This document shows, piece after piece, positions 676-30,728 of a stretch of 42,157 nt of DNA; within the stretch, counting starts at the first letter, position 1, and every line of letters begins with the position of its first letter. The notes below the pieces were generated by a model. That model ran no database searches. It saw only the letters and a list, made by a program, of their open reading frames with translations, and had not been told where the DNA came from. The position numbers and the translations under genes are program-made. The DNA is taken from positions 1 to 42,157 of IMG/VR virus record IMGVR_UViG_3300037189_003500, one strand, 5' to 3'. This DNA comes from a virus.

Positions 676-873
676 CTATGAGGGGAGTTTGACGGACCCC
701 ACGGTGGTTACTACGGAATTCCTCTGGGACCCTACAGGCCACGCAGCGGATGTTGAACTCGACACAGAGTCTCCTTGAACGGGGACTGTGGTGGTTGTTA
801 GGGGCACAGGCTTGGAACCTTGAATGTTCCCACTGAGCTTTCCATTAAAGGCTTTACCGTCTAGTGTAGACAT
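676..873 (-). CDS. Small leftward early protein, unknown function
   Basis: This 65-residue protein begins MSTLDGKAFNGKLSG and is rich in Ser, Thr and Val. No domain is recognised. It is the first leftward gene after the AT-rich patch and forms a pair with 416-655, with similar length and composition. Its ribosome binding site is weak (a GAG about ten bases upstream), so confidence is moderate. Two TATAAT matches on the - strand (RC of 897-902 and 917-922) lie just upstream but have no convincing -35 boxes. The orientation matches the early genes at the far right of the window, as expected if the DNA is read as a circle or concatemer. Confidence 0.45.
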   Translation of the reverse strand: MSTLDGKAFNGKLSGNIQGSKPVPLTTTTVPVQGDSVSSSTSAAWPVGSQRNSVVTTVGSVKLPS

Positions 874-1080
874 AAGGTACTCATTGAGTAATATGGATTA
901 TAGCTAGATACTGTGGATTATATAGAGTTCCTTATGGACTTTATAGAGTACCTAGTGTTCTTAATAGGATAACCTTTATTAAGATCCTCCCTTCGGTCGG
1001 ATTCTTTAGTAAAGTTTATTAGGATTACAAGAAGTCCATAAGGTTCCTTAAGAGTCCTTTAAGAACTCTTTTCCCCCTTA
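874..1080. other. AT-rich intergenic patch, candidate origin region
   Basis: This stretch is visibly more AT-rich than the rest and full of small direct and inverted repeats. GGATTATA occurs at 895-902 and 915-922, TATAGAGT-w-CC occurs twice near 921-952, CTTAATA pairs with TATTAAG near 959-983, and AAGAGT (1050-1055) pairs with ACTCTT (1065-1070). It lies directly downstream of the leftward candidate phage promoter (1136-1161). In T7 the primary origin is an AT-rich segment next to phage promoters that prime replication. The origin role here is inference from arrangement only. Confidence 0.4.
884..912 (+). promoter_or_regulatory. Possible host sigma70 promoter, rightward
   Basis: A TTGAGT box (884-889), a 17-nt spacer and GATACT (907-912) match the host sigma70 pattern at five of six and four of six positions. 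It would transcribe into the late region before phage polymerase is made, or serve small rightward genes. AT-rich DNA gives chance matches, so support is modest. Confidence 0.3.
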
Positions 1081-1114: not shown

Positions 1115-1303
1115 ATGGAGGGATGGTCTACAAGCACTCTTCTCCACAGGGACGGGGTATACCCCCAGATTCCTACTTACGACCCTTTAGACAAGAATCC
1201 TAGGGTAAACCCCGTCCCTGTGGAGAACAGTAGTGATCACTCACTTCCCCTGCTGGATCTCGAACTCGACAAGGACCCTTCAAAGGAGGAAGAACTGCAA
1301 TGA
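1115..1303 (+). CDS. Doubtful 62-aa ORF over the divergent promoters
   Basis: The ORF has a plausible ribosome binding site (AAGGAAGG before the ATG) and its stop overlaps the next start (TGATGA). However, it spans both the leftward (1136-1161) and rightward (1209-1227) promoter-like sites, so a transcript from the rightward site would begin inside it. The two inverted sites fix much of its sequence. No domain is seen. It may be a real small gene read from a host promoter, or only promoter DNA that happens to be open. Confidence 0.25.
   Translation: MEGWSTSTLLHRDGVYPQIPTYDPLDKNPRVNPVPVENSSDHSLPLLDLELDKDPSKEEELQ
1136..1161 (-). promoter_or_regulatory. Candidate phage RNA polymerase promoter, leftward
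   Basis: Read on -, the site starts TATACCCCGTCCCTGTGGAG and continues AAGAGT. All 26 bases are identical to the site at 36411-36436. If GGAGA marks the start of transcription, it shares the T(-8), C(-7), C(-5), T(-4) and T(-2) of T7 promoters and the C(-11) and C(-10) of T3. It faces left into the AT-rich patch and the small genes at 873-416, and would run on into the early genes on a circular or concatemeric template. The identification is inference from repetition, position and resemblance. Confidence 0.6.
1209..1227 (+). promoter_or_regulatory. Candidate phage RNA polymerase promoter, rightward (late operon)
   Basis: ACCCCGTCCCTGTGGAGAA matches 19 bases of the two leftward sites, in the opposite orientation, and is followed by CAGTAGTGATC, close to the GAGTAGTCGATC that follows the site near 36411. 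It lies just upstream of the rightward late operon, where a late promoter is needed. With 1136-1161 it makes a divergent pair about 50 bp apart, which also forms a large inverted repeat. The start of transcription would be near 1222. Confidence 0.6.
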
Positions 1304-1551
1304 TGAAGGATATGTCGCAACCAGAGGGTCGACCCCCTAGGGTTCCCTTAAAGACCTCTAGAGAACTCTTAAGGACTCTCACAAGCCAAGACCTTGTTGA
1401 TTGTCTCCAATCCCTATTCCCAGATCGTCTGCCTCATGTAGTAGTCGATCCATCAACCCTTGGAAGACTTATTGGTCATCAGGAAGTCATCCGGTGTATC
1501 CGTCAGTCCCTTGAGGAGCAATCAAAGCATTCCGTATTCAACACCCCCTAA
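1300..1551 (+). CDS. Small protein at head of late operon, unknown
   Basis: This 83-residue soluble protein has a well-placed strong ribosome binding site (AAAGGAGG upstream of the tandem ATGATG start). The N-terminal third is basic and proline-rich; the rest looks helical, with no motif I recognise. It is the first convincing gene after the rightward candidate promoter and ends 17 bp before the glycine-rich protein gene. In T7 the equivalent position holds small virion or assembly proteins (genes 6.7-7.3), but no clear match is visible. Confidence 0.7.
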   Translation: MMKDMSQPEGRPPRVPLKTSRELLRTLTSQDLVDCLQSLFPDRLPHVVVDPSTLGRLIGHQEVIRCIRQSLEEQSKHSVFNTP

Positions 1552-1567
1552 GTAGGAATAAAACCCC

Positions 1568-2506
1568 ATGGACCCAATAAGCGTGGCTCTGGCAGCATCC
1601 GCAGTCTCAGGACTCTTTGGGTTCTTCAAGCAGAAGGTTTCCAACAAGGCGTCTCAAGACACCTCTCAGATTGTCAATGGAACCATAGCGGCTGCTAAAG
1701 GCGACACAGAGGCAGGTCAGCAGAACGCTGCCAAGAACATCTCCTATGGAGCAGAGCAGCCCACCACAGCATTCACTGAGGCAGACGACTTCCTCAGGAT
1801 GAATCCCTTCTCGACCCAAGAAAACGGAGAGATTGTCCTTACGAACCTTGGGGATCCCAAGAAGGGCATCCTGAAGACTCGCGGTCGATCCACGGAAGCT
1901 ACGGCAGCAGCCGGAATGCCCCAACTGGTCAACTCAGGTTATGGGGCTGTAGTGGCTGATCCCGGCAGAACGTCGGTTGATGTCACCGGATTCGCACCCC
2001 CCGGTTCGCCTGCACTTGCCAATACAACCTTGGTGGACCCCCTTGCCAACTGGAGTCCTTCGGAAACCGCTGGTGGAAACATCGGCAGTCCCGGTGGGGA
2101 TGGCATGAGCAGCGATGGTCTCGGGTACGGGGGTAACACCAACATCTCCACTGAGGCTACCAATGCTGCAATGGCAGATGGAACCTCCAATGAAGGCTTC
2201 TCAGGACTCGGTGGTGACGTGGGGCTTAGCGGCTTCGGTGCTGGAGACGGCTCAGGTGGCCTTGGTGCATCTGATGGTGGCTTCGGGTCGGGAGGATTCG
2301 GCACAGGTTTTGGGGGTGCTATCGGCTCTGGGTTCGGTGGTGCTGGTATCGGCATGGGCGGTGTGGGCACTGGCGCAGGGCAGGGTGACGGCTTTGGTAT
2401 CGGCCTTGGTGGCACAGGCGTTGGCGAAGGTATTGGAGGCGGCGAAGGTATTGGCGGTGGCGCGGGCATGGGCGCAGGCGAAGGTGGCTCCCTTGGGGGC
2501 ATCTAA
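1568..2506 (+). CDS. Glycine-rich protein upstream of portal, possible gp7.3-like virion protein
   Basis: This is a 312-residue protein. The N-terminus (about 1-25) is hydrophobic and alanine-rich with a small GLFGFF segment. Residues 30-190 are mixed, and from about 190 to the end the sequence is almost only Gly with Ala, Ser, Asp and Ile in short repeats such as GGAGIGMGGVG and GIGGGEGIGGGAGMG. It sits directly before the portal gene, where T7 has gp7.3, a small virion protein needed for adsorption. The positional match suggests a tail or adsorption assembly protein, but the sequence gives no proof. The low-complexity tract also produces a long antisense proline-rich ORF, which is an artefact. 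Confidence 0.7.
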   Translation: MDPISVALAASAVSGLFGFFKQKVSNKASQDTSQIVNGTIAAAKGDTEAGQQNAAKNISYGAEQPTTAFTEADDFLRMNPFSTQENGEIVLTNLGDPKKGILKTRGRSTEATAAAGMPQLVNSGYGAVVADPGRTSVDVTGFAPPGSPALANTTLVDPLANWSPSETAGGNIGSPGGDGMSSDGLGYGGNTNISTEATNAAMADGTSNEGFSGLGGDVGLSGFGAGDGSGGLGASDGGFGSGGFGTGFGGAIGSGFGGAGIGMGGVGTGAGQGDGFGIGLGGTGVGEGIGGGEGIGGGAGMGAGEGGSLGGI

Positions 2507-2523
2507 ACAATTCAAAGGAACCT

Positions 2524-4113
2524 ATGAAGGACGAATCAGACAAGGCTGAGTTTTCTGAACTCATGGGTAACAAGACCCTCAAGTCCGAGTACAACAGAAT
2601 GGAGACCCTTAGGGAGACCTACCTGAACCGTGCTCGGGCTGCTGCCGCAATCACAATCCCGGCCCTTGTGGTCCCCAAAGGCTTCACGGCTTTCTCGACC
2701 CTACCGACTCCCTATCAATCCATGGGAGCGCGGGGGGTAAACAACCTGGCATCCAAACTCCTGCTTACCCTGCTGCCCCCCAACGAGCCGTTCTTCAAGC
2801 TCTCGATGGATGACAGTGTCCGCGAGAAGCTCGGAGCCAAGGTCGGCGAAGTGGACAAGGCGCTCTCGCAGGCTGAGCGTGCAGTCACTCGGGACATCGA
2901 GACGGCCCAGTACAGGCCCGCAGTGTTTGTCGCACTGAAGCACCTACTGGTCTCGGGCAATGTCCTGACCTACGACGACGACGATAGCCGCGCTCTCAGA
3001 GTGTTCTCGCTGACCCAGTACGTCGTTGACAGGGACTCCAGCGGTCATGTCATGAAGATCATCGTGAAGGAGACAACCTCCCCCGATGCGCTTCCGAAAG
3101 AGATTCGTGAACAGGTCCAATCGCTTGTCCCTCAATCGGACAATCATGACTCCACGCAGATCCAAGAAATTGATCTTTACACCGGAATCTACCGGGACGA
3201 CGACAAGTGCTACGTCTGGCAGGAAGTCATGGGCATCAAGATCCCCGGATCCCAAGGCAGCTACCCGAAAGAGCGTTGCCCTTGGAATGCCCAGCGGTTG
3301 ATCTACGTCGAAGGCGAGGACTATGGTCGAGGCTACGTCGAGGAGTTCTACGGTGACCTGAAGTCGCTTGAGGTCCTCACACGCTCGATGGTCCAAGGAG
3401 CCGCTGCTGCCTCCAAGCTGGTCTACATCGTGAACCCCAATGGGGTAACCGATCCTGACGACTTGGCAAGGGCAGAGGGCGGTGATGTCATCCCCGGTAC
3501 GTCTGACGATGTCCATGTCATCCAGACCCAGAAGGGCAGTGACTTCAACGTGGTCGAGCAGCGCATCCAGCGTCTGACTGAGCAGTTGTCGTTTGCGTTC
3601 CTGCTGAACTCCGCAGTGCAGCGTCAGGCAGAACGGGTAACCGCAGCCGAGATCAAGTACATGGCTAACGAGTTGGAAGCCGCCCTCGGTGGAATCTACT
3701 CATCCCTGTCGCAGGAGTTCCAGCTTCCTCTGGTGCGCTCCCGCATGGCCTCTATGCAGCGCCGTGGTCTCCTTCCGAATCTCCCCGCCAAGCTCGTGCA
3801 GCCCATGGTCACCACCGGGGTTGATGCTATTGGCCGAGGCAATGACTTCGAGAAGCTCCGTGCGTACATCGGGTTCCTTGCTGAGTCCTTAGGGCCGCAG
3901 AAGGTAGCCGAGATTCTCGATTCCTCTGAGGTCGCTAAGCGTGCAGCAGCGGCGATGGGTATCAACGAAGACGGACTTGTTAAATCGCCTGAGCAACTCC
4001 AAGCTGAACAACAGGCACAGATGCAAGCAATGATGGCTCAACAAGCAGCAGGCCCTATGGCAGGCGCAATGGCTCAAGCAGCTATGGCCCCTCCCGATCA
4101 GCCCCAACAGTAA
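2524..4113 (+). CDS. Head-tail connector (portal) protein, T7 gp8-like
   Basis: This 529-residue protein is close to T7 gp8 (536) in length and clearly of that family. The N-terminal region has the typical YLNRARAAAAITIPALVVP segment followed by GVNNLASKLLLTLLPPNEPFFKL. The C-terminus is a Gln/Met/Ala-rich tail. Twelve copies are expected to form the ring at the capsid vertex through which DNA is packaged and ejected and to which the tail tube binds. A ribosome binding site AAAGGA precedes the ATG. It follows the glycine-rich gene by 17 bp and precedes a small gene and the scaffold gene, as in other T7-like phages. Confidence 0.96.
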   Translation: MKDESDKAEFSELMGNKTLKSEYNRMETLRETYLNRARAAAAITIPALVVPKGFTAFSTLPTPYQSMGARGVNNLASKLLLTLLPPNEPFFKLSMDDSVREKLGAKVGEVDKALSQAERAVTRDIETAQYRPAVFVALKHLLVSGNVLTYDDDDSRALRVFSLTQYVVDRDSSGHVMKIIVKETTSPDALPKEIREQVQSLVPQSDNHDSTQIQEIDLYTGIYRDDDKCYVWQEVMGIKIPGSQGSYPKERCPWNAQRLIYVEGEDYGRGYVEEFYGDLKSLEVLTRSMVQGAAAASKLVYIVNPNGVTDPDDLARAEGGDVIPGTSDDVHVIQTQKGSDFNVVEQRIQRLTEQLSFAFLLNSAVQRQAERVTAAEIKYMANELEAALGGIYSSLSQEFQLPLVRSRMASMQRRGLLPNLPAKLVQPMVTTGVDAIGRGNDFEKLRAYIGFLAESLGPQKVAEILDSSEVAKRAAAAMGINEDGLVKSPEQLQAEQQAQMQAMMAQQAAGPMAGAMAQAAMAPPDQPQQ

Positions 4114-4134
4114 CTTTCCTAGGAGGAATACCGA

Positions 4135-4338
4135 ATGTCAGAGAAGCAGATTCCGCAAGCGAAGGTTGTCCCTGAGGTCAACCAGATCGAAGTCCTCAAG
4201 GCACAACTCGCTGCGGCCCAAGAAGAACTCAAAGCACGAACCAGCGAGACCGCAGTTGATGGTTTCGTTCACGGCATTGAATCGAATGTGAAGGCCCGCG
4301 TGACCCTCGCAAACGGCTCGGTGCGATTGGACTACTGA
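4135..4338 (+). CDS. Small protein between portal and scaffold, unknown
   Basis: This 67-residue protein has a strong ribosome binding site (TAGGAGGA) in the short gap after the portal gene. Residues 15-40 form a probable coiled coil (IEVLKAQLAAAQEELKAR), followed by a short segment ending VTLANGSVRLDY. No family is recognised. It lies two bases upstream of the scaffold start, so the two are likely translated together. A minor head or assembly role is inferred from position only. Confidence 0.75.
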   Translation: MSEKQIPQAKVVPEVNQIEVLKAQLAAAQEELKARTSETAVDGFVHGIESNVKARVTLANGSVRLDY

Positions 4339-4340
4339 AC

Positions 4341-5171
4341 ATGGCAGAAGCTAATGCAACTCCTGCAGTTCCTACGGCTCCTGCCCCCGGCACCCCAGAA
4401 CACGATGCAGCCTTGGCAGCTTCGTTTGATGCTAAGGGTGGCAGGACGGTCGATGAGAATGGGGTCGAAAGTACCCCGTCGGAGAAGCCCGCTGATGCGG
4501 CCCCTACCACCCCAGCGCCAGCGCCTGAGAAACTCCTTGCGGGCAAATACAAGACCGCTGAGGATTTGGAGAACGCATACAAGGCTCTAGAAGCCCGCCT
4601 AGGCGCTCCGAAGGACACGGCAGCTACTACCCCCGCACCAACCCCCACCGACGCAACACAGGCCCCTACAGACGCTCCCAAGGGCATCGACTACAGGGCC
4701 ATTGGGGATGAGATCGCGGCATCCGGTGACGTTTCGGCTGATACTCGGGCGGCTCTTGCCAAGACCGGGATGCCCGACTCGATGATTGACACCGTCGTTC
4801 AGGGCCTGAAGAACCAGTACACCGAGATGCAGAACCAGGCATATGAGGTTGCTGGCGGCAAGGAACAGTTCGAGGTCATGCGTGAATGGGCGAAGACGAA
4901 CCTTTCCGATACCGAGAAGAATTTCCTTCAGGCGCAGACCGCTGCCGGTAAGGAACAGGCAATGCTTGCTGTTCAGGCACTCCGCTCGCGGTACGAAGCA
5001 GTCAACGGAAAGCCCCCGGCAGTTCTGGTGGATGGCAACAAAACGTCATCGAACGTCGGCTATGAGTCGCGCTACCAGATGGTGGCCGACATGAGGAACC
5101 CGCTGTACAAGGCTGACCCCGCATTCCGGGCGAAGGTCGAGCAGCGAATCATGGCCACCACGACGTTCTAA
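4341..5171 (+). CDS. Capsid assembly scaffolding protein, T7 gp9-like
   Basis: This is a 276-residue acidic, Ala/Pro/Thr-rich protein with a disordered N-terminal half (residues 1-115) and a helical C-terminal half. It contains the short motif LLAGKYKTAEDLENAYKALE, common in T7-like scaffold proteins. It lies just before the major capsid gene, as in T7. It should direct procapsid assembly around the portal and leave before DNA is packaged. The C-terminal helices (about 225-276, positively charged) are likely to touch the capsid protein. Length is close to T7 gp9 (307). The start follows the previous stop by two bases, suggesting coupled translation. Confidence 0.9.
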   Translation: MAEANATPAVPTAPAPGTPEHDAALAASFDAKGGRTVDENGVESTPSEKPADAAPTTPAPAPEKLLAGKYKTAEDLENAYKALEARLGAPKDTAATTPAPTPTDATQAPTDAPKGIDYRAIGDEIAASGDVSADTRAALAKTGMPDSMIDTVVQGLKNQYTEMQNQAYEVAGGKEQFEVMREWAKTNLSDTEKNFLQAQTAAGKEQAMLAVQALRSRYEAVNGKPPAVLVDGNKTSSNVGYESRYQMVADMRNPLYKADPAFRAKVEQRIMATTTF

Positions 5172-5229
5172 AGAATACGGGTTCAGGCAGGTCCCCGTCT
5201 CCTCCGAAATACCTCCCCCCTCGGAATCA

Positions 5230-5281
5230 AGGGCCTTGGGGTCACTGGTGCGTTCTCCACGACTGGTGACCCGAAGGCCCT
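5230..5281 (+). other. Strong hairpin upstream of the capsid gene
   Basis: AGGGCCTT (5230-5237) pairs with AAGGCCCT (5274-5281) and GGGTCAC (5239-5245) with GTGACCC (5266-5272), giving 15 pairs around one G/G mismatch with a 20-nt loop. No T-run follows, so it is not a normal terminator. In T7, RNase III cuts mRNA at hairpins between genes, so a processing or stability element for capsid mRNA is plausible. The rest of the 250-base gap (5172-5421) holds no supported gene and no copy of the promoter-like motif. Confidence 0.6.
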
Positions 5282-5421
5282 CCAAGGCTTTCTACCCTCA
5301 ACTCCTAGACTTCAGCGAAGCGGCTGGCCCATTGCGATGGACACCCTGCAAGCGGTAGCGAAAGGCGAGTGAGTGTGGGACTAGAAGCAAACCCCCTTAA
5401 CTCTATGAATCTCTCACAATC

Positions 5422-7019
5422 ATGAGCAACGCAACTCCTGCAATGTTCGGCGCAGCCAACTCGGCTGGTGACCGCAATGCACTCTTCCTCAAAGTCTTCG
5501 GCGGCGAAGTCATGGCCGCTTTCGCAGAATCGAACGTCTTCCTCGACAAGACGATGGTTCGCAGCATCGCCTCTGGTAAATCTGCTCAGTAAAAAGCCCG
5601 GTAGCTGAGCCTAAAACTATTTAATTGCTGGAAACACCCTCGCGGCCAATCAGCAGCGAAGCCTGACCTAACGGCAGGAACGTTCAACGACTATCCCGAA
5701 AGGGAGTAGATACAAAGGTATCGAAATGGTAGTTAGTAGCCATGACACTAAAGTGTGTCGTTCGTGCGGGACTGAAAAGCCCATTGACAAGTATTACGTT
5801 CACTGTTCCGATCCTATTAAAGGAAAGGTGTATCAGGCGCAGTGCAAGGAATGCCATATCGAGCAACAACGATATCGCAAGCTTGGCGTGTGCAATGTCA
5901 AATACGATGAGATGCTCCTTGCCCAGAGGGGTAAGTGCGCGATTTGTTTCTCAACCCTGAATTCCTCCCGTTACACCAAGTTCTGTGTGGATCACAACCA
6001 CACGACAGGACAGGTGCGAGGGCTGCTCTGCGTCGGTTGCAATACCGCACTAGGGCTGATGAAGGAATCCCCAGAGAGATTCTTGAGCGCAGTCGAGTAC
6101 CTCAAAAAGTTTCAACTTGCTGCTAAAGATATAGTCTGATCTGCATAGCAATATGCAGCGGTGTGGAATTAACCGTCCCACACGGGTGCGCCTCTGAAAC
6201 GCACTGAACATCCCAAGTAGCAGTCTCTGTGAGAATTCACACACAGAAACTGTGACATTTGTCCCGGCAACTTGGAAGGTTGTAGCTGGATATCACACCC
6301 CCGGCACCCAGATCCTCGGTCAGAACACCAACGTCAACGAGCGTGTGATCGTCATTGACGACCTGCTCGTGTCGAGCGTGTTTCTCGCCAACATCGATGA
6401 AGCGAAGTCGCACTACGATGTCCGTTCGGAATACTCGAAGCAAGTTGGCCTCGCGCTGGCTCGTACTCTCGACCGCAACCTGGCGCAACTCGTGTGCCTC
6501 GCAGGTCGCGCTTCGGCAACCATTCAGGGCGGCTTCGGCGGCTCGGTGCTGGTCAATAGCTCGTACGGTTCGGACGGTGCAGTTCTGGCCTCCGGTATCT
6601 TCTCCGCTGCTCAGGCAATGGACGAGAAAGATGTGCCGATGGATGAGCGCTATGCCGTTATTCGTCCGGCTCAGTATTACCTGCTGGCTCAGACCACCAA
6701 CGTCCTGAACAAGGACTGGGGCGGCTCGGGTGCTTATGCAGATGGCACCGTCATGAAGATCGCCAACGTGGCCATCATCAAGTCGAACAATATGCCCCAG
6801 TACGTTGTTGCTGACGGAATGTCCCAGTATCGCGGTGACTTCACCAACAGCCGTGGCGCAGTCTTCCACAAGTCGGCTGTGGGCACCGTGAAGCTCATGG
6901 ACGTTGCTACCGAAGCTCAGTACCAGATCGAGCGTCAGGGCACCCTCGTGGTCGCTAAGTATGCCCTCGGCTCGGACATCCTCCGTCCCGAAGCCGCCGT
7001 CGAGTTGCGTATTGCCTAA
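5422..7019 (+). CDS. Major capsid protein, T7 gp10A-like, interrupted by a group I intron (join 5422..5590, 6262..7019)
   Basis: Exon 1 encodes 56 residues ending SGKSAQ plus the first base of the next codon. Exon 2 continues from TCCCGGCAACTTGG. Joining 5422-5590 to 6262-7019 restores one frame of 308 residues, with the junction SGKSAQFPATWK matching the SGKSAQFPV of T7 gp10. Further family marks are YHTPGTQI, VIDDLLVS and HYDVRSEYSKQVG. Without splicing the frame stops at once (CAG TAA), so full-length capsid depends on intron removal. The start is unusual: there is no clear ribosome binding site, and a six-codon mini-ORF (ATG at 5405) ends in TCATGA overlapping it. Hundreds of copies form the HK97-fold shell. 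Confidence 0.95.
5591..6261 (+). ncRNA. Group I self-splicing intron in the capsid gene
   Basis: This is a 671-nt intron. P1 forms between exon GCTCAGT (ending at 5590) and intron GCTGAGC, placing the required U-G pair at the splice site. The last intron base is G6261. Core elements are recognisable: P (AATTGCTGGAAA), Q (AATCAGCAGCGAAGCC), R (GTTCAACGACTA near 5682-5693) and S (AAGATATAGTC, 6126-6136), where GACTA of R pairs with TAGTC of S to form P7. The HNH gene lies between R and S, in the P8 region. A P9 hairpin (CTGCATA-gcaa-TATGCAG) follows. Joined exons give the expected capsid sequence, which strongly supports these boundaries. Confidence 0.93.
5726..6139 (+). CDS. Intron-encoded HNH endonuclease, recombination endonuclease VII family
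   Basis: This is a 137-residue protein. An N-terminal CxxC pair (CRSCG at 11-15) and a second pair (CKEC, about 40-43) suggest a zinc-binding head. The C-terminal domain has CAIC, the catalytic FCVDHNHTTGQVRGLLC and CNTALGL, typical of Endonuclease_7-type HNH proteins. Such enzymes cut intronless alleles so that the intron is copied in by repair (homing). A ribosome binding site AAAGG precedes the ATG. The last codons (AAAGATATAGTCTGA) are also the S strand of the P7 core helix, so gene end and ribozyme core overlap. Base composition is more AT-rich than the capsid exons. Confidence 0.92.
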   Translation: MVVSSHDTKVCRSCGTEKPIDKYYVHCSDPIKGKVYQAQCKECHIEQQRYRKLGVCNVKYDEMLLAQRGKCAICFSTLNSSRYTKFCVDHNHTTGQVRGLLCVGCNTALGLMKESPERFLSAVEYLKKFQLAAKDIV

Positions 7020-7047
7020 GCAACCCTCTAACTAAGGAAACACTTCA

Positions 7048-7749
7048 ATGTCTATCGGTCAAGAAAGTGCTCTGTTTAGCCCGGCGACTCTGTCGGCTAA
7101 CGGTAGCACCACCTCCATGACGCTCCCTTCGGCGGGTCTCAACCTCCTCGAAGTCTATCTCGGCACTGGCGCTACCTTCGGTTCGGGTACTGTCACCGTT
7201 CAGTCCTCGCCGGACGGTGGTACGACTTGGGTAACCAGCCCCATCGGTACTGCTACGTTTACCTCGGGTTCTGCCAACACCCTCGTCAACCGCTTCTTCG
7301 TCTACGGCCCCGTGGTTCGCTTCACGCTGGCAGGTGCCACTTCGCCGTCGCTGGACATCCGTGCGATTGCCAAGGAAGTCCGTGAGCCGCGTGGTGCTTC
7401 GGCATCGGCTCCCAACAGCCCCAGCATTGGCGCTCCGGTTACGTTCGCGTTCACTGCGAATGCCACCTCGGCGACCATCATGGTCCCCAGCTATGATCAG
7501 TCGCTGGTGACGGACGTTGCTGTTGCAGCTTCGGGCACCTTCGGTTCAGGGACTCTGACTCTTCAGACCAGCCCTGACGGTGGTACGACTTGGTTCGCGG
7601 TGGGCACTGCTGTTACCGCTGCCGGTTACATCACTGTGGGTACTCCGCTGCTCGTTCCGATGCAGTTGACGGCTAACACCCATCGGATGTTCCGTCTGGT
7701 TCTGACGGGCGCAACCTCGCCTGCGATCAGTGCCCGTGTGATCCTGTAA
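7048..7749 (+). CDS. Capsid-adjacent two-domain beta protein, possible head decoration protein
   Basis: This 233-residue protein is built of two tandem copies of one domain. Residues about 10-110 contain GSGTVTVQSSPDGGTTW and residues about 125-233 contain GSGTLTLQTSPDGGTTW, each ending in a similar GATSP-containing strand. The composition (Thr, Ser, Gly, Val) is typical of beta-sandwich virion proteins. It lies 28 bp behind the major capsid gene and before the likely terminator at 8039, so it should be co-expressed at high level with capsid. A decoration or head-fibre role is inferred from place and fold type. An AAGGAA ribosome binding site is present. Confidence 0.8.
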   Translation: MSIGQESALFSPATLSANGSTTSMTLPSAGLNLLEVYLGTGATFGSGTVTVQSSPDGGTTWVTSPIGTATFTSGSANTLVNRFFVYGPVVRFTLAGATSPSLDIRAIAKEVREPRGASASAPNSPSIGAPVTFAFTANATSATIMVPSYDQSLVTDVAVAASGTFGSGTLTLQTSPDGGTTWFAVGTAVTAAGYITVGTPLLVPMQLTANTHRMFRLVLTGATSPAISARVIL

Positions 7750-7759
7750 GGAGACCACA

Positions 7760-8032
7760 ATGGCCCTTACTACCTCAGTCTTTGTTGGCCGCATTCAGGG
7801 CCAGACTTCGGGTGGTACTGCCATCACCACGCTGAATCCGGTTACGATCTTTGGTGACAACACCATGTCGTACACGGATGCAGCGGGTGTCGTTCGCAAT
7901 ATCTCCATTCGAGGCGATATTGGTCCGTTGATTGATGCCATCTTCAAGGGCACCAACGGGTACAACACAGGCCGTTTCAACAACAAGCCTGTGCTTACCG
8001 TCAACGGTCAGGGCGGCAGAACCGACTCCTAA
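7760..8032 (+). CDS. Small protein downstream of capsid, unknown
   Basis: This 90-residue protein has the ribosome binding site AAGGAG, with its ATG 10 bp after the previous stop. It begins MALTTSVFVGRIQGQ and is Gly/Thr/Asn-rich, without membrane segments, cysteines or known motifs. It is the last gene before the terminator-like hairpin at 8039, so it belongs to the capsid expression unit. A minor virion protein is the most likely role, but I do not recognise a family. Confidence 0.75.
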   Translation: MALTTSVFVGRIQGQTSGGTAITTLNPVTIFGDNTMSYTDAAGVVRNISIRGDIGPLIDAIFKGTNGYNTGRFNNKPVLTVNGQGGRTDS

Positions 8033-8038
8033 ACCCCT

Positions 8039-8084
8039 AAGCCACTCTACCTCGCCCCTCCGCTTGGATAGGGTGGCTTTCTTT
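8039..8084 (+). terminator. Intrinsic terminator after the capsid genes
   Basis: AAGCCACTCTA (8039-8049) pairs with TAGGGTGGCTT (8069-8079), an 11-bp stem with one G-U pair and a 19-nt loop. It is followed by TCTTT. It lies after the capsid unit and before the tail genes, the place where T7 has its late terminator T-phi. Partial termination here would raise capsid transcripts over tail transcripts. Confidence 0.65.
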
Positions 8085-8096
8085 GCGAATTCAAAA

Positions 8097-8714
8097 ATGG
8101 CAGACCTCTCAATCAACCTCGTTCCTACTACAGACATCGAAGCGGTGAATGGGATGCTTGCCCTGATCGGTGAAGCCCCAGTCTCGAATATCTTGGACAC
8201 TGGTAGCTCGGACGTAAACCTTGCAACGCAGTGCATCCGTAATGTCTCCCGCAGTTTTCAGTCACGCGGATGGTCCTTCAATGTGGACTCTGAAATGCCG
8301 ATGGTGCGTGACTCCAGCGGAAACTTGAATGTCCCCAGCAATGCCATCGTAGCGGCGATCTCCAAAAGTCAGGGACGCAATGGTGTCCAGCGTGGTGCGC
8401 GGATGTGGGATTTGGACAACTTCACGTTTGCATGGGACTCAGACCTGAACATGGACTTCGTGTGGTTCATGGCTTTCAACGACTTGCCTGAACACGCTCG
8501 GTATCACATCTACAGTTCAGCGGCGCTGCTCTACGCCCGCAGTCAGATGTGCACCCCGATCATTGTTCAGAACGCCCAGCAAGAAGAAGCTCGTGCTCGC
8601 ACCATCTTCAAACAAGTGGAGCACCGTATCGCCCCGCAGAACGTGTACCGCTCGGGCACGCTCGCACTCGACCTCCTCAGGGAGCCTAATTACGTTTACA
8701 TACCGGGACGCTAA
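8097..8714 (+). CDS. Tail tubular protein A, T7 gp11-like
   Basis: This 205-residue protein is close to T7 gp11 (196). The family pattern is clear: EAVNGMLALIGEAPVSNI near the start, the segment SRSFQSRGWSFNVDSE, and WDLDNFTF in the middle. The protein forms the gatekeeper ring between portal and nozzle. The start at 8097 was chosen because conserved sequence begins there; the longer open frame to 7932 overlaps the previous gene and the terminator. The ribosome binding site is poor, so translation may rely on upstream ribosomes. It abuts the tail tubular B gene without a gap. Confidence 0.93.
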   Translation: MADLSINLVPTTDIEAVNGMLALIGEAPVSNILDTGSSDVNLATQCIRNVSRSFQSRGWSFNVDSEMPMVRDSSGNLNVPSNAIVAAISKSQGRNGVQRGARMWDLDNFTFAWDSDLNMDFVWFMAFNDLPEHARYHIYSSAALLYARSQMCTPIIVQNAQQEEARARTIFKQVEHRIAPQNVYRSGTLALDLLREPNYVYIPGR

Positions 8715-10892
8715 ATGCCTATCTCTCAGATCCTCCCGCTGCCTCTGGATGGAGTCTCGCAGCAGCCTGACGAAATCCGTGCACCAACCTGCGCTGCGAT
8801 CATGGACAACTGTGACGCGACGATGGTCCGAGGTCTGAGTACCCGCCCCGGCACCAAGCACATAGCCCGCCTTAGTTCGCTAACGGCGGCATCCTATGCG
8901 AACTCTCATGTTCACTTCATTGACCGCAGTCCCACAGAGAAGTGGATGCTGGTCCTGAATGGTTCTACGGTACAGGTGGTCAATGCTCTGACAGGTGCAC
9001 TGGCAACCGTCTCGTATCAGGATGAGTCAGGGGCAAGTATTTCCGCTCCCTCGTACCTGACGGCATCGGATCCTCGGAAGAGTTTCAAATGCCTTACCGT
9101 GGGTGACTACACGTTCGTTGCGAACCGTGAAGTGACGGTGGGTTCTTCAACAATCACCACGAGCTACGGCACCACGAACTTCTACAAGGCGGCTGCGGAT
9201 GTACCCGCCACCCCCGCATCGGGCACTCTGTACATTGTCACCGGGACTTCTGTGGACGGCTCAGGTCGCTACTACCTGAAGCAGAGCACACTCTCATCTT
9301 CGGTGTACACGGAGACCTGTGCTGCGAGCGTAACTGCCCCCAACAAGGCAGACCTTCCGTGGACGCTGGTGAAGACTGGCGCGACTACTTTCGTTCTCCG
9401 AAGGGGTAACTATCTTCCTCCGCAGGTTGGTGATGACGCATCGAACTTCCCCGCCTCGTTCATTGGGCGGCAGATTCGCGATGTGTTCTTCTATCGGGGA
9501 CGCCTGGGTTTCCTAACGTCCTCTTCGGTGTTGATGTCGCAACCCATCACGAACATCAATGCAGCCTTGGGTATCCAGTACAACTTCTATCGGAAGTCCA
9601 TGACTGTCGTCGCAGCCGATGACCCGATTGATGCAACTGTGGCTCACCCCCGTGCTCCTACGTTGAGCGCAGCGGCACTCTTCAACAAGACATTATTGGT
9701 CTTTGGGGACACCGTGCAGTTCCAGTGTCAGCCTCAGGGTGACGTTCTGTCGCCTGCTACGTTTGCGCTGAATCCCGTCACGGAGTTCGACTGCAGTCAA
9801 ACCGTAAGACCTGTGGGACTAGGTCCTAAGGTGTACTTCACGCAGCCCTCTTCGGGTGGTATGCGGCTTCGAGAGTTCTTTGTGCAGAAGCTCGGCGTCA
9901 TTCAAGACGCTATTGATGTCACGCTGCAGTGTCCTACCTACGTCAGCCCGAATGTGTTCACGATGGCCACTTCCACCACGGAAAACCTGTTGGCATTGGC
10001 GAACACCGCGTACACGCCGCTATACGGAACACAGGATGTGTCGCCCGCAAGCTACCTGTACATCTATCGCCCGCAGTTTGATGGGGAGGGTAACCGCACA
10101 CAATCGAACTGGAGCCGCTACACGTTTCCAGCAAACGATAGTGATGCGATTATCGGCATGGGTGTTTCACAGTCCGTCATGTACCTTCTGTGGTATCGCA
10201 CGACTGGCATCTACTTGGAGACGTTGGATTGGGTTACCCCAGCAGCAGCGTTTGTCACGCGGGGTGACGTGCCTTTTGCAGACGGTATTGTGAACACGCA
10301 GCCAAGCTGGATCTGTCTGGACAGGGTCTCAAGTTTCGCGTCAGGGACGGGGACCTACAGCAACACCACCGGCTACACCACATGGACGGGTGCGTGGGAC
10401 ACCACGAACTACACCAGCCTAAATGGGGTAGTGACATCCGTGAGTCCCGGTGAGACCGTTGCAATCGAGGTGGTGAACGCCACAACCATCCGTGCGTTCG
10501 GGGACTACTCTGCAAAAGCCATTGCGATTGGCGTACCCGTGACAATGAGTGTCATGTTGTCTCGTATCCAACTCAGGGGTAGGGATGACACACCAGACAT
10601 CGGTGCAGTCCTAAGGCTTAGGTCGCTACAGGTAAACACCCGTGACAGTGGACCTATAACTGTGGCAGCAACTCAGTACAACCAGTTCCCTCACGGGGCA
10701 ACGATGGCTGAACGGGTGCTCGGGTCTACGGTCCTCTCAGCAGGTAAGGTGTTCACAGGAAGTAGCAGGCTCTCGATCAACGCTCAGGCAGCGGAGAGTC
10801 GAATCACAATTCAAAACGCAACGCCTATCAGGGCCACCATCTCGGGGCTTACTTGGGAAGGTGAGATAACTCGTAGAACTAAGAGGGCATGA
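8715..10892 (+). CDS. Tail tubular protein B (nozzle), T7 gp12-like
   Basis: This 725-residue protein is of T7 gp12 type (794). The opening MPISQILPLPLDGVSQQPDEIRAPTCA, with its GVSQQPD motif, is the family hallmark, followed by CDATMVRGLSTRPGTKHIA. Middle and C-terminal parts are beta-rich. Six copies are expected to build the tail nozzle below the gp11 ring, where fibres attach. Its ATG follows directly on the gp11-like stop, implying coupled translation. No unusual feature is seen except a somewhat short C-terminal half. Confidence 0.95.
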   Translation: MPISQILPLPLDGVSQQPDEIRAPTCAAIMDNCDATMVRGLSTRPGTKHIARLSSLTAASYANSHVHFIDRSPTEKWMLVLNGSTVQVVNALTGALATVSYQDESGASISAPSYLTASDPRKSFKCLTVGDYTFVANREVTVGSSTITTSYGTTNFYKAAADVPATPASGTLYIVTGTSVDGSGRYYLKQSTLSSSVYTETCAASVTAPNKADLPWTLVKTGATTFVLRRGNYLPPQVGDDASNFPASFIGRQIRDVFFYRGRLGFLTSSSVLMSQPITNINAALGIQYNFYRKSMTVVAADDPIDATVAHPRAPTLSAAALFNKTLLVFGDTVQFQCQPQGDVLSPATFALNPVTEFDCSQTVRPVGLGPKVYFTQPSSGGMRLREFFVQKLGVIQDAIDVTLQCPTYVSPNVFTMATSTTENLLALANTAYTPLYGTQDVSPASYLYIYRPQFDGEGNRTQSNWSRYTFPANDSDAIIGMGVSQSVMYLLWYRTTGIYLETLDWVTPAAAFVTRGDVPFADGIVNTQPSWICLDRVSSFASGTGTYSNTTGYTTWTGAWDTTNYTSLNGVVTSVSPGETVAIEVVNATTIRAFGDYSAKAIAIGVPVTMSVMLSRIQLRGRDDTPDIGAVLRLRSLQVNTRDSGPITVAATQYNQFPHGATMAERVLGSTVLSAGKVFTGSSRLSINAQAAESRITIQNATPIRATISGLTWEGEITRRTKRA

Positions 10893-10893
10893 C

Positions 10894-11424
10894 ATGAGCT
10901 TTTTCTCTTCCCTGCCTATTGCGGGGATAGCCAACGCAATCGGTAACGTGTTTGGTTCCGCACAGAAGACCAAGGACAACGTCGCTCAGCAACGCAATAT
11001 CCAATCCTCAGTCAAGTCTGACAGGGTTCTGTATGGAAAGCAGGTGCAGCAGATTGCAGCGCAGGCAGGCCAGCAGAAGGGGATGCGGGCAATTCAAGCA
11101 GAGCAGCAGATGGGCGCACTCAACGCGATGCTGGCTGATACAGGGGTAGTGGGTAACACACACGCTGCCCTTCGCAACCAGATACTAGGCGACATGGGTA
11201 TCGACCAGCAGACCATTACCACCAACGCATCACAGGCATTGGAACAGGCGCAAGCGTCCTTCGAGTCCCGAATGAGGGGTTACGAATCTCAAAACAATCA
11301 AGTGCAATCGAGTGCCCCATCACCCGTCGGTAGTTTCTTGTCGAACCTCGCGGGGTTCTTGCCGGATAAGTCTGGCAACAAGATGACCGTTGGCGACGTT
11401 GGCGGCTTCAAACTCTTTAGCTAA
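10894..11424 (+). CDS. Internal virion (ejection) protein, T7 gp14-like
   Basis: This 176-residue protein (T7 gp14 is 196) is Gln- and Ala-rich and helical after a hydrophobic, glycine-containing N-terminus (about residues 3-20). The first of three consecutive genes in the T7 14-15-16 order, it should be ejected first and form a pore in the outer membrane. Assignment rests on gene order, size and composition more than on motif identity. Its start is one base after the previous stop. Confidence 0.85.
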   Translation: MSFFSSLPIAGIANAIGNVFGSAQKTKDNVAQQRNIQSSVKSDRVLYGKQVQQIAAQAGQQKGMRAIQAEQQMGALNAMLADTGVVGNTHAALRNQILGDMGIDQQTITTNASQALEQAQASFESRMRGYESQNNQVQSSAPSPVGSFLSNLAGFLPDKSGNKMTVGDVGGFKLFS

Positions 11425-11439
11425 TCAGGAGCTATACCC

Positions 11440-13644
11440 ATGGCATATCAATCGGAAGGCCCACGCGTGGGCCTCCAAGTGTCAGCCTCTCCGGTTGATT
11501 CCACCGTGCGTGCAAGAACGCATGACGCGGAGATCGAGACCTTCGTGCGGGGATTAGGTCAACTTAACTCCGCACTGCAAGACAACTTCATGTTCGAGCG
11601 TAAGCAGGACCTCGAAGCGGGCCAGCAGCAGGGCCGCATCGGTGGTGAGCAGCAACCAGGCTCTACCCGCTCGTTCGCTGAAGGATTCATGAAAGGTAGT
11701 GGCGAGGCCGCCGCTATACGCGACTCCGGGGATCTTCGGGCTAAGGTCGCGACGGAGGCACCTAATGATCCTGTGAAAGCTCAGGCAATCATTGCGGGCT
11801 TCCACAAGGGCAAGACTGAAGGCATAACCCAACCGCACTTCGCGGAGGGCTACAACCGCATCATGGCTAACGAGGCATCCAAGCTGGTCGCATCGTCCGG
11901 TGAAGAGAGTGCTAAGGAAGTCATCAGCCAGAACGACATCAATGCTTCTGACCGTATTGGCTACGTTGTTCGTCAAGGGGGCAATGACCACAAGCTGACG
12001 TGGCAGGCCATCAACGACATCGCCGCTGAGCACCACCTAACCGGAACCCGTAAGGACCAACTGGTACTCACGGTGATGGAACAAGTAGCACAGGAAGGCA
12101 AACCCGGTGCGCTGGCCCTGCTGGACTCCATGCGGATTGACGCAAAGACCGGCAAGGACTTTCCCGCGCTGTCCTCGAACCCTGCGTTCACCGCTAAGGT
12201 TCAGTCACTGAAGAACGTGGCTGAGTCTAAGTGGATTCAGAACATGAGGCAGGAAGCTGACACGACAATGATGCCGTTCCTTGAGCAAGCCACTGAAGGC
12301 AAGCTCAACGAGGGTGAGTTCAAGAAGTGGGCAGCGCAGTACGACCGTGTTCTGTCCTCGCAGACCATTATGGGGGTCATTCACGCGAACCGCTCGGCAC
12401 TTGCAAGGCAGCAGATGCAGGTGGACAAGATCGCCGCAATCGAAGCCAACAGGACTGCGAAAGGTCTTGTCGACTCAAACGCGACTGCTGCATTCGCTGC
12501 GGGTGGGTCACACCTCCTTGCGCCACAGACAATCCCTTCGGCTTCTGGTACTAGCAACGACACGATCTCTGTAGAGGCTCAGCAGGAAGCAGGGCGCGAT
12601 GGGTGGCTTGCAGCTAACCCTAATGCAACCCCGCAGCAGATGGCTTTACAGGGTGCACTGAACATCACGAAAAGTGGTAGGTCGGCTGATATGCCTCCCC
12701 TTACTAACCCCATCAGGAAACTTCTGAGTGCGGGCATCGCTGAGTATGACTACAAGCCTGACCCGAAGACTGGCGAAATCCAAAAGCCCATTCCCGGAGA
12801 GCTATCCCCGGAGTCCATGAAGGCCCTCGCGCTTTACCGGCAGATCCCGCAGGCACATCAGGGTTGGCTGAAGGAGCAGTTAGGTCAGAAGTCTTATGAG
12901 CTTCTTCAGTTCATCGATGATGGTATGGCGGTTGGTCTATCTCCGACTGAAGCCGCAGGGCTGGCCCACCGCATCAACGTGAAGGGTAAGACCTACGAGG
13001 ACAAGAAGGAGTTCGCTAAAGCCCTCAGGGAAGTCACTCAGGAGTCTGTTTCGAGCAGCATCATGCGGTGGATTGGGGGTGGGGATTTCAAGGCCGATGG
13101 CAACGTCGAATCCGTTCGAGATCGCATCCATAGCACTGCAACTCTCTACATGATGTCGGGCCTCTACGCGAACGCTGAGGATGCTGCAAAGGCTGCTACA
13201 AAAGACTTGTCCAAGCAGATGTTCGTCGCCAGTAATGCCACCTACTTCTCTGCTGATTTCCCTGTGACTCCTAAGACGTTCACTGACAAGGCTACCGGGG
13301 TGAAGGTCCTGCTGGCTGAGAGTGTTCAGTACGCATCGGACAAGTCTATCGGTGCTGATGACCTAACACTGGACCGGATGGGCAATGGGAATTGGATGGT
13401 CAAGTACAAGAAGGACCGTGAGATTGTCCGAAGTGCGGATGGCAAGCCGGTCACTTGGTCCAACGATCAGATCGCAGCCATGTGGGCACAGAAGTCTCAG
13501 GCTGAAGTGGATGCATTCATTGCAGGTAAGGACAAGGAAGCAGCACAAGTACAGGCACTAAAGGACCGTCCTAAGTCTTCAGGTGCAACCCGTAGAGGCA
13601 ACCTCGCAGCGCAAGCCGCCGAGAGGAGTGCCACCAACCAATAA
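11440..13644 (+). CDS. Internal virion (ejection) protein, T7 gp15-like
   Basis: This 734-residue protein (T7 gp15 is 747) is mostly alpha-helical and charged. The N-terminal 70 residues match the style of the family (DAEIETFVRGLGQLNSALQ, then a Gln/Gly-rich turn and a FAEGFMKGSGEAAA segment). Together with the gp16-like protein it should form the periplasmic tunnel that carries DNA into the cell. A ribosome binding site CAGGAG lies before the ATG. No cysteine cluster, membrane segment or enzymatic motif stands out. Confidence 0.88.
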   Translation: MAYQSEGPRVGLQVSASPVDSTVRARTHDAEIETFVRGLGQLNSALQDNFMFERKQDLEAGQQQGRIGGEQQPGSTRSFAEGFMKGSGEAAAIRDSGDLRAKVATEAPNDPVKAQAIIAGFHKGKTEGITQPHFAEGYNRIMANEASKLVASSGEESAKEVISQNDINASDRIGYVVRQGGNDHKLTWQAINDIAAEHHLTGTRKDQLVLTVMEQVAQEGKPGALALLDSMRIDAKTGKDFPALSSNPAFTAKVQSLKNVAESKWIQNMRQEADTTMMPFLEQATEGKLNEGEFKKWAAQYDRVLSSQTIMGVIHANRSALARQQMQVDKIAAIEANRTAKGLVDSNATAAFAAGGSHLLAPQTIPSASGTSNDTISVEAQQEAGRDGWLAANPNATPQQMALQGALNITKSGRSADMPPLTNPIRKLLSAGIAEYDYKPDPKTGEIQKPIPGELSPESMKALALYRQIPQAHQGWLKEQLGQKSYELLQFIDDGMAVGLSPTEAAGLAHRINVKGKTYEDKKEFAKALREVTQESVSSSIMRWIGGGDFKADGNVESVRDRIHSTATLYMMSGLYANAEDAAKAATKDLSKQMFVASNATYFSADFPVTPKTFTDKATGVKVLLAESVQYASDKSIGADDLTLDRMGNGNWMVKYKKDREIVRSADGKPVTWSNDQIAAMWAQKSQAEVDAFIAGKDKEAAQVQALKDRPKSSGATRRGNLAAQAAERSATNQ

Positions 13645-13652
13645 GGAACAAC

Positions 13653-16600
13653 ATGGCAAACACGCCGTCTGACTTTGTAAATATGCTTCTCCCCTCGGCT
13701 CAAGCTGCTGAGAAGCAGACTGGAGTACCAGCAGCATTCATCATTGGTCAGGCGGCGCACGAGACCGGGTGGGGGTCTAGGCTCCCGACTCACGCCGATG
13801 GTAGTTCCTCATTCAACTTGTTTGGCATCAAGGCACAGAAGGGCTACACCGGACCCTCCGTGGACACCCCTACCCATGAGTTCATCAATGGGCAGAGGGT
13901 CAACATGAACGACAAGTTCAGGGCCTATGGGAGCTACGAAGAGTCCATGACCGACTGGGCCAAACTCATCTCTAAGCGGTACGCGGGCGCTGCTGCTGCG
14001 AAGAGTGGCGAAGAGTTTGGTGCACACCTTAAGCAGGGAGGCTATGCCACTGACCCGGCATACGCTCAGAAGGTAGGGGGCACTGTCCGCAAGGTTCAGA
14101 GCCTGATGGATGTAGTCCCCAATGCGGGCGCTGCTGCCGCTGCCCCGGTGAATGCCGTAACACCACCCGTAGACTTCTACGCAGGCAAGTCACTCCCTTC
14201 AGCAGGCATGGGTGCCCCCGATCTAGGCAAGCAACAAGCTGAGGAGCAGGGTAACCGCAAGACCGTTTGGGAAGGCATCAAGAACATCCCCGAAGCCTTC
14301 GCGCTTGAGAACCGACAGAACAACTGGATTCTCAACCAGCGCGAGGAGTTCATGATTCGTCCTTTGGAAGAACAGAAGGACTGGTACAAGGACCCGATGG
14401 TGGCCCGCGAGCTTGCGAACATCCCGCAGAACCAGTGGGGCTACCTGCTCAACGGCACGATGTCACTGGACCACTTTGCCGCCCGTATGCAGCGCCGCGA
14501 GGAAGCTATCAAGCGGCAGGGTCAGATGGATACCCTCGGTGCTTGGTCGGCTCCCGGTAGCTTCGCTGCTGCCATCATGGGTGACCCCACCACGCTGCTG
14601 TATGCAGTGCCTGGTATCGGTGAACTGGCAATGGTCTCCAGAACCTCTAGGCTGGCCAATGCGGCTGCGACGGCTGCTGGATGGGGTACGAGTGCTGCTG
14701 CCTTCGCCGCGACGAACCAGAACCCTCTACGCCAGCCTGAGGACGTTGTTATGGCGGGTGCCTTTGGCGTTGCCATGGGAGGCGTCTTCGGTGGCCTCGC
14801 AAGACCCATCGAGCGCCAGATGATCCGTGAGGTTGGTAGGGGTGACCCTAACGTCCGCAAGACTGGCTTCGACAAGGAGATCGAGCAAGGCGTCAAGAAC
14901 AACGACACCACGCTGCTGTTGGGATGGAACGGAAACCCGGACAGAGACTCCGTGATCATCATGGGGCACAACCCTTCGAGGACCCGTGAGGAGTGGATCG
15001 CTCACTTCAACGACCTCGATGCAAGGATTAAAGCAGGGGACGATGGGCTTCGCAGGGAAGTAACGGGTACTGACGCTTCCGCTACGGGCACTAAGACGGA
15101 TTCATCTGCACCCAATCCTGTGGTGGAACGTGGGTCCATCGACGTAACCCCAAACTGGGACTGGGCAAGCAGCGTTGAGCGTGCATTCGGTTCGCTGATG
15201 GCAGTGGCAAAGCGCGGTGCAGGCGATGACCTGAACCTTATGCGCGAGGCTTTTAGTTCGTTCTTCAAGACATCCCCGGATGGCAAGGTCATTGGCCTTG
15301 ATCGTAAAGAGATCAACAGGAGAATCGGACTTGATCATTTCAACAAGGAAGAAGAGGCTTTCTTAGAAGCCCTGACAAGATCCCCTCTCAAGGACATCGA
15401 TAGGTGGCTGCAGGAAATGGGGCTGCATACCAAGGACGACCTAGAAGTGGCTGCTGGTGCATATTCCTCACGCACAATGGGCAGGCTTGAACAGGATCGT
15501 GACTACCTATTTGCCTTCCGTCGCGGTAAAGCGGCAATGTCCGCTAAGGACTTCCTCAAGCGCATGGCGAAGGGTGAGTTTGAAACCGCTGAAAACGCCC
15601 GCCTTGGTCTTGCCGACCCGACTTTGAAAGGGCTGGCAGAACGATTGATTAGCGCGATCAAAGACGGTAATGACATTCAGCTTCAGATATTCAAGACAGG
15701 GCAAAAGCTAGAGAAGGTTGGAACGGAATCCCCGCACTACGATTACGCCAACAACCGGATCATGCTTCCTGATAATGATCACGGGCGAAGCCCAGCGACG
15801 ATCCTCCATGAGATTGCTCATGCGCTCACATGGCACAAATTGTGGCAATACTCTACTGACCAGCTCAATCACCCCGACGGTGCCTTGCTGTACCTCAGGC
15901 TGGATGACTTGCGTAAGAAGGCCCTTGCCAAATGGGAGTCAATGAACCCCGGCAAGGACGTTCAGAATGAACACGCAGGCTGGCAGGGGGATGAGTTCAA
16001 GACTACCTATGCCCTCACGGGGTTCGGTAATGGTGACTTCTATGCGGTCAATGAGTTTATCGCTGGCATCTTCAGCGGCAACAAGCACCTGCTGAACTTT
16101 CTGGCAGGCATCGAGCACGCGCCATCGCAGTCGGTGGCATCACGCATCTGGGAGGTGATCTCTAAGGCCCTCGGGTTGACCAAAGCAGACTCTACGGTTC
16201 TCGCAGAAGCATCGCGGACAATCGATGAGATTCTCGACAGGCCACTGACGGTAACCATCAAAGACCCACTCGGAGGCGTTGATGTTCCCATGATGGCTAC
16301 CAACTTCGCACCTAATCCCGGTGTGCCCATGTCGGTTGCTCAGGCTGCACAGAATGCTGGCGTCCCCACCACATATGGCCTCGGCTTAGGTCTGGAGAAC
16401 AAACTGATGGGCAGCAAGTTGTCTGCTGCATTTACAGGTGTTAGGGAACTAGCAGCGAAACTCTTCGGGACCACCATCGGCTATCTCGATCACTCTGTGG
16501 TGGGGGCTAACTCATGGGACCACGCGAGCCACCTCAGGAACAAGTGGGGTAGCAAGCTGCACGACTCGGAGAAGAAGAACTTCCTTGAGTACGCTGAGGG

Positions 16601-18767: not shown

Positions 18768-18780
18768 TAACTGGCGGGGG

Positions 18781-18816
18781 GAGAGGTTATCTCTCCTCTC
18801 CCTCCTAACCTCTTTC
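18781..18816 (+). other. Hairpin between ejection protein and tail fibre genes
   Basis: AGAGGTTA (18782-18789) pairs exactly with TAACCTCT (18806-18813), with a 16-nt pyrimidine-rich loop, followed by TTC. It fills the only gap of note between late genes after 8.1 kb. It could be a weak terminator or an mRNA processing site; the T-run is too short to decide. Confidence 0.45.
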
Positions 18817-18827
18817 AGGAACCTTCA

Positions 18828-20369: not shown

Positions 20370-20371
20370 CT

Positions 20372-20722
20372 ATGCCCCGGCCCCTGAGTAGCCGCTTCAT
20401 GGGGCATGACTACAAGATCGTATGGGAACCCCGCAACGGCATTCTGCTCAAAGCAGAGGTCGATGGGGTTCCCGGCGAGCTTCGGTGTCATGGCCTGTGC
20501 GATGAGGAAAATCAAACCATCCGCATCGAAAAAACACTCCCGCCCACGTTTGAGCGTGAGGTCCTAATCCACGAGACCCTGCATCAGATATTCAGCACTT
20601 CAGGCTTCGAGCTTGACGCTGAGTCTGAAGAGCGGTTCGTCTCTTACCTCGGAGCAGCCCTCGCTGCACACATCTGTGATAACCCAACCTTCTGGCGTTA
20701 TGCAACGCGCCACATCAAATAG
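20372..20722 (+). CDS. Small HExxH (zinc metalloprotease-like) protein
   Basis: This is a 116-residue protein. LIHETLHQIF (about residues 65-74) is a full HExxH zinc motif, preceded by a short beta sheet (VPGELRCHGLCDEENQTIRIEK) and followed by ESEERFVSYLGAALAAHI with a conserved-looking Glu that could be the third ligand. This layout resembles SprT/ImmA-type minimal zincins. It starts two bases after the tail fibre stop and precedes the holin candidate, a site where T7 has no protease gene. Possible roles are processing of virion proteins or cleavage of a host regulator. No family name is certain. Confidence 0.75.
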   Translation: MPRPLSSRFMGHDYKIVWEPRNGILLKAEVDGVPGELRCHGLCDEENQTIRIEKTLPPTFEREVLIHETLHQIFSTSGFELDAESEERFVSYLGAALAAHICDNPTFWRYATRHIK

Positions 20723-20729
20723 AAAGACC

Positions 20730-21561: not shown

Positions 21562-21568
21562 GGTGAGC

Positions 21569-25745: not shown

Positions 25746-25755
25746 GCGTTGATTT

Positions 25756-26365: not shown

Positions 26366-26397
26366 GTGTCTTTCCTTAGGGGATGATTGGGAGGAGA

Positions 26398-26550: not shown

Positions 26551-26576
26551 TGTTGTGCTCCTAGGATCAGAAGACT

Positions 26577-30726: not shown

Positions 30727-30728
30727 GG

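Follow-up and report, generated by a model that had tools for sequence, protein, structure and literature searches.

How a single phage-encoded RNA polymerase could transcribe two gene arms that run in opposite directions is the question raised by the head of the late arm in IMG/VR virus record IMGVR_UViG_3300037189_003500, analysed here over its full length of 42,157 nucleotides (the window). T7-like phages are treated as strictly one-directional. The gene content of the window is that of the Autographiviridae (T7-like), comprising a single-subunit RNA polymerase (RNAP), T7-type replication and podovirus head-tail genes, yet the single direction of transcription that characterizes the family is absent, the portal gene lying on the plus strand and the RNAP gene on the minus strand. 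A preliminary description of the locus proposed that a divergent pair of T3/T7-class promoters for the phage's own polymerase stands at the junction of the arms, and this proposal is supported by comparative promoter discovery, by the covariation of residue 748 with base -11 and of residue 746 with base -7, and by five other divergent-arm phages. On the evidence of the sequence, three sites in the window are very probably promoters of the phage's own single-subunit RNAP, one serving the DNA-metabolism arm (copy C), one the inverted virion arm (copy B) and one the junction between arms (copy A).

The window contains three exact copies of the 19-mer ACCCCGTCCCTGTGGAGAA, at 1140-1158 (-), 1209-1227 (+) and 36415-36433 (-), and on the minus strand the 19-mer forms part of a 26-bp block, TATACCCCGTCCCTGTGGAGAAGAGT, which is identical at 1136-1161 and 36411-36436. 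Exact matching confirms the plus-strand 19-mer and the junction block as first reported, but only two occurrences had been claimed, and the third, at 36415-36433, had been overlooked. Dinucleotide-shuffled windows contain no match to the 19-mer, even with three mismatches allowed. Over 22 nt the three sites show 0, 0 and 1 mismatches, the plus-strand copy B being the one that differs, while the next best place in the 42-kb window has seven, which is the chance level, and no further weaker copies were found there. All three copies lie inside gaps of more than 100 bp between called genes, and such gaps make up about 7% of the window. The conserved block spans -17 to +9, matching the footprint of a T7-class promoter (the register of copy A being set by comparison with relatives), and the consensus of the sites is TAWACCCCGTCCCTGTG followed by GAGAA, from -17 to +5. 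As expected of T7-class promoters, this near-identical motif of about 23 bp is intergenic and stands ahead of the late and DNA-metabolism arms. Copy B heads the late operon, whose first ORF lies at 1300-1551; copy C precedes the DNA-metabolism genes and is separated from the RNAP stop by about 160 bp, in which a terminator-like hairpin lies; and copy A reads leftward into about 1.1 kb that holds two small ORFs and an AT-rich patch (Table 1).

Table 1. Features of the window, and outward-facing motif copies in five other divergent-arm phages (positions are those of the respective sequence)
Feature	Position	Strand	Remarks
Promoter copy A (predicted)	1136..1161	-	early-facing, leftward; +1 at 1144 (or 1145); block identical to copy C
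Promoter copy B (predicted)	1206..1231	+	late-facing, rightward; +1 at 1223 (or 1222); exact 19-mer
Promoter copy C (predicted)	36411..36436	-	exact copy; +1 at 36419 (or 36420)
AT-richest 200 bp of window	873..1072		67% AT vs mean 44%; z 6.3, rank 1 in 42 kb; directly downstream of copy A
Late arm	1300..23254	+	two small ORFs, portal, scaffold, capsid, tail, internal virion genes, terminase
Leftward DNA-metabolism arm	23606..36363	-	SSB, endolysin, primase/helicase, DNA polymerase, ribonucleotide reductase
Terminator-like hairpin between RNAP stop and copy C	36492..36521	-	consensus match only; 3 in region vs 0.4 expected
Single-subunit T7-like RNAP gene, presumed cognate enzyme	36598..39291	-	phrog_414 E=1.7e-208; Pfam RNA_pol; T7 RNAP in PDB E=2e-105
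Tyrosine integrase	39298..40389	-	by profile matches
Transcriptional regulator	40386..40733	-	phrog_9665
L193 outward pair	3953-3973/3987-4007	-/+	
L210 outward copies	2380 and 3765	-/+	late-facing exact copy 1.4 kb from early-facing
L231 outward pair	6813/6848	-/+	
L255 outward pair	6540/6565	-/+	
L256 outward pair	6697/6754	-/+	

Several further elements mark the layout of the genome. The arms meet tail to tail at a hairpin (23555-23605, with 23-nt arms and a 5-nt loop), which is a candidate bidirectional terminator. A group I intron at 5546-6158 (+; Rfam RF00028, 64.7 bits), which contains an endonuclease VII-like ORF (5726-6139) and immediately precedes a capsid fragment (6252-7019), seems to interrupt the major capsid gene, and a second at 28782-29396 (-; 37.5 bits, E 1e-7; small ORF at 29009-29263) seems to do the same to the DNA polymerase gene; the two introns have 33 nt in common at 91%. 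The non-coding junction contains a perfect 31-bp tandem duplication, CCCTCGGAAAATTCTGTAGAAACTAGTCAGG, at 359-420, a possible operator.

The inverted orientation of copies A and B invites a different reading, whereby the pair would act as an RNA hairpin (a terminator, processing site or attenuator) and its resemblance to promoters would be incidental. The stem formed by the inverted copies is indeed very stable (-55 kcal/mol, z -8.9), but such a stem arises automatically from two outward copies, and no terminator-like T tract follows it. In the divergent-arm phage L210, moreover, the late-facing exact copy lies 1.4 kb from the early-facing one, and in the window copy C stands singly, without an inverted partner. 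The hairpin reading was rejected on these points and is most unlikely.

The promoter reading draws on the relatives of the phage, each of which was searched for repeats with a copy near its own RNAP gene. The IMG/VR relatives were retrieved with alignment queries, since searches of IMG/VR with the window RNAP alone, or with that of L231 alone, returned none. In many relatives the repeat search yields one T7-class motif per phage, and in 24 of about 45 loci (some of them near-duplicates) the phage's own repeated motif lies about 20-170 bp after the RNAP stop; the position of copy C after its RNAP gene matches that found in T7-like phages. As a positive control, the same search recovers the promoters of Pseudomonas phage LUZ100, whose phage-specific promoters phi1-phi8 were mapped experimentally by ONT-cappable-seq (PMC10134795). 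The motifs of the relatives differ in sequence but have the T7-class build in common, as in GATTACCCCTCACCATAG, CTAAACCCTCACTCTCGCAG, AATTAGGTGACAGTATAGGAG and GAAATAGGGACCACTATAGAGAG. In the co-directional relatives (n=18), which carry 2-6 same-strand copies each, all 70 motif copies share the strand of the genes, the opposite strand having none, and the reversed motif gives none. A generic profile built from 23 T7-class promoters, with the window left out, ranks copies A, C and B at 66, 65 and 178 of 84,274 positions (the top 0.1-0.2%); as a sequence-based score this is good but not decisive alone, and the rapid divergence of promoter sequences in this group keeps it from the top. A scan of IMG/VR with the exact 17-mer gave two chance matches only, in unrelated contigs of 65-86 kb. 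The nearest kin of the late arm is L320 (IMG/VR 3300021519_000194, 1-11263; portal 84%, capsid 89%), a contig that ends inside the portal gene.

A more specific link between motif and enzyme is provided by the specificity loop. In T7 and T3, base -11 is known to vary with residue 748 of the polymerase, and base -7 with residue 746; the T3 enzyme has D748. The loop was aligned across 23 RNAPs, with T7 numbering taken from a PDB alignment, and the residue-base rule was derived from the 22 relatives, leaving the window out. An acidic residue 748 accompanies C at -11 (14/17 vs 0/5, p=0.002) and a basic one G at -11 (4/5 vs 0/17, p=0.0007), this being the base with which residue 748 is most strongly associated; R746 accompanies C at -7 and is associated with no other position (15/16 vs 2/6, p=0.009). 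All of these p-values ignore relatedness, and the motif registers and the alignment of L255 were set by eye. The window RNAP has R746 and D748, a mapping that rests on one alignment of a long-branch enzyme with a best identity of 36-38%; with the second G taken as +1, the window motif carries C-7 and C-11/C-10. This agreement at both specificity positions ties the motif to the window polymerase and fixes the register. In the register so fixed, +1 falls at 1223 (+), 1144 (-) and 36419 (-), and resemblance to the T7 class is seen both in the profile ranks and in C-7, C-5, T-4 and T-2. The matches to T7 first listed for the pair (T-8, C-7, C-5, T-4, T-2) hold under the same choice of +1; of the two start points given with them, 1144 (-) fits this register, but 1222 (+) is off by one base, two registers having been mixed. 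Positions -12 to -10 are known discriminators between T7 and T3 (PMC11617373), and N748D is among the published changes to T7 RNAP that switch promoter recognition (PMC5934624).

The same covariation bears on the proposition that a repressor such as the MarR-like regulator uses the 26-bp block as its operator, or else that host RNA polymerase uses the block as an activator site for late genes. A regulator gene does lie in the same cassette as the RNAP. Its product has weak similarity (34%) to the LUZ100 locus and to other relatives at the same cassette position, where the homologues in LUZ100 and other relatives are called MarR-like, and it has no Pfam match. For LUZ100, MarR control near the RNAP promoter has been proposed by its authors (PMC10134795). 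Against both versions, however, the block has no dyad common to its copies; its position, its length (-17 to +9) and the base-residue covariation fit a phage polymerase; and covariation with RNAP residues 746 and 748 would not be expected of sites for a regulator. The copies also lack flanking sigma-70-like hexamers on their strands. Either version was rejected on these points and is very unlikely.

The predicted use of one promoter type in two directions is not confined to the window. Portal and RNAP lie on one strand in 46 of 46 IMG/VR records that hold both; they lie on opposite strands in L193 and L210 (Vampirovibrionales MAG), L231 (cyanobacterium MAG), L255 and L256 (IMG/VR). Each of these five phages has its own motif, with an outward pair at the arm junction, and four of them also carry copies directly flanking the RNAP gene, the fifth, L256, being cut within that gene. 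They resemble the window in opposing an RNAP arm to a virion arm, in the outward pair at the junction and in the AT-richest patch behind the early-facing copy, but they belong to a separate lineage and have a different motif in each. In the portal tree the five group together in a single clade that excludes the window and L320 (AU p=0.0005), and in the RNAP tree the three that were placed there do not join the window, whose branch is very long. Their separate placement in both trees suggests that the divergent layout probably arose twice. Nothing argues more strongly for a functional arrangement, as opposed to an accident, than the recurrence of the divergent promoter pair in two lineages. The literature searched contained no account of divergent-arm T7-like phages; StenR_269 was considered as a precedent for a divergent cluster and set aside, its authors having suggested an N4-like virion RNA polymerase. 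Between the arms, L193, L210 and L231 code for an ArdC-like anti-restriction protein and a DUF6876 protein, and L193 also for a DNA polymerase III beta clamp homologue.

These phages also bear on whether the repeats could be recombination sites, either att cores or the ends of an invertible segment. The exact 26-bp identity across 35 kb, the nearby integrase gene and the inversion of B relative to C, such that recombination between the two would flip nearly the whole late arm, are all in keeping with this idea. In the other divergent phages, however, the same architecture is built from different sequences, and extra copies lie beside the RNAP gene; the same-strand copies of the co-directional relatives likewise speak against a role in recombination, which was rejected on these points and is scarcely credible.

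Copy A calls for separate consideration, for its sequence arrangement is that of a T7-type primary origin, with an AT-rich segment just behind a phage promoter. The T7 primary origin consists of phi1.1A/phi1.1B and an AT-rich segment, and lies just after gene 1, whereas the candidate in the window lies at the arm junction. Copy A could be mainly a primary replication origin, at which an RNAP leader transcript would run through 873-1072 as at phi1.1A/B; this is a possible reading, although on balance doubtful, and it would add to the promoter reading for copy A while leaving B and C unchanged. In its favor, in 6/6 divergent phages no 200-bp stretch of the whole sequence is richer in AT than one found within 1 kb downstream of the early-facing copy; among the co-directional relatives, a copy precedes the AT maximum in 2/17, with 2.7 expected by chance. 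Five of the six divergent phages are, however, one clade, and the patch may simply hold host early promoters, as in LUZ100, where the AT maximum coincides with the mapped host promoter P3. The association suggests a T7-like origin or host early promoters, either of which would explain it, and the patch is a candidate for one or both.

Taken as promoters, the three sites allow a course of transcription to be proposed. Host RNA polymerase would first make the early genes and the phage RNAP, which would then start at copy C, leftward into the DNA-metabolism arm, at copy B, rightward into the inverted virion arm, and at copy A, also leftward, into the early side of the arm junction. Were the molecule circular or concatemeric, transcription from copy A would run on into the early genes and the RNAP gene, and the RNA made across the AT-rich patch could serve to prime replication in the manner of the T7 primary origin. 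We infer from sequence comparison that RNA would start at these sites, that the window polymerase would make it and that copy A may have a role in replication. The ends of the window overlap exactly over 24 nt (1-24 and 42134-42157), composed of AGGATCTTGG repeats, which may represent a terminal repeat or circular junction; the overlap is compatible with a circular or concatemeric molecule without proving one. Further short tandem repeats lie at 49-93 and 42075-42113. The preliminary description had the junction pair serving both arms. Its rightward half does head the late operon, but the main leftward arm is headed by copy C; likewise, the leftward junction copy faces the small ORFs and the AT-rich patch as described, but would need a circular or concatemeric molecule to reach the early genes and RNAP.

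The proposed arrangement, in which one polymerase would serve two opposed arms by means of a back-to-back pair, departs from the one-directional scheme of T7-like phages. More broadly, divergent-arm T7-like phages might constitute a recurrent architecture that has arisen at least twice, with the outward RNAP-promoter pair and the AT-rich patch forming a compact hub for late transcription, for feedback on the early arm and polymerase, and for the primary origin; this is a tentative generalization, more apt to fail than to hold. The consistent presence of the patch beside the early-facing copy makes the origin hypothesis testable. The polymerase and its predicted promoter also form an assignable pair, with specificity predicted from residues 746 and 748, that may be useful as an orthogonal expression part.

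Among known systems, LUZ100 has the closest RNAP with experimentally mapped promoters. It carries the same cassette of integrase, regulator and single-subunit RNAP (the latter 36% identical), and its promoters follow the RNAP gene. Its motif, ATTACCACACAGGTATGGAAGA (phi7, ATTACCACACAGTTATGGAGAA), has TACC.C.....T.TGGAGAA in common with that of the window, but other core bases differ. In LUZ100 all protein genes and promoters are on one strand, and a promoter also lies directly before the RNAP gene, as in L231 and L210, whereas the window has no copy directly upstream of that gene. With the promoters of the T3/T7 class the predicted sites have in common a 17-bp upstream element, a GA-rich start and C-5/T-4, and they resemble T3 in combining C-11 C-10 with D748, and C-7 with R746. 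They differ from T3 and T7 in being C-rich from -13 to -10 and in having G at -9, -3 and -1. The window also has only three copies in 42 kb, fewer than T7, and their predicted use is divergent.
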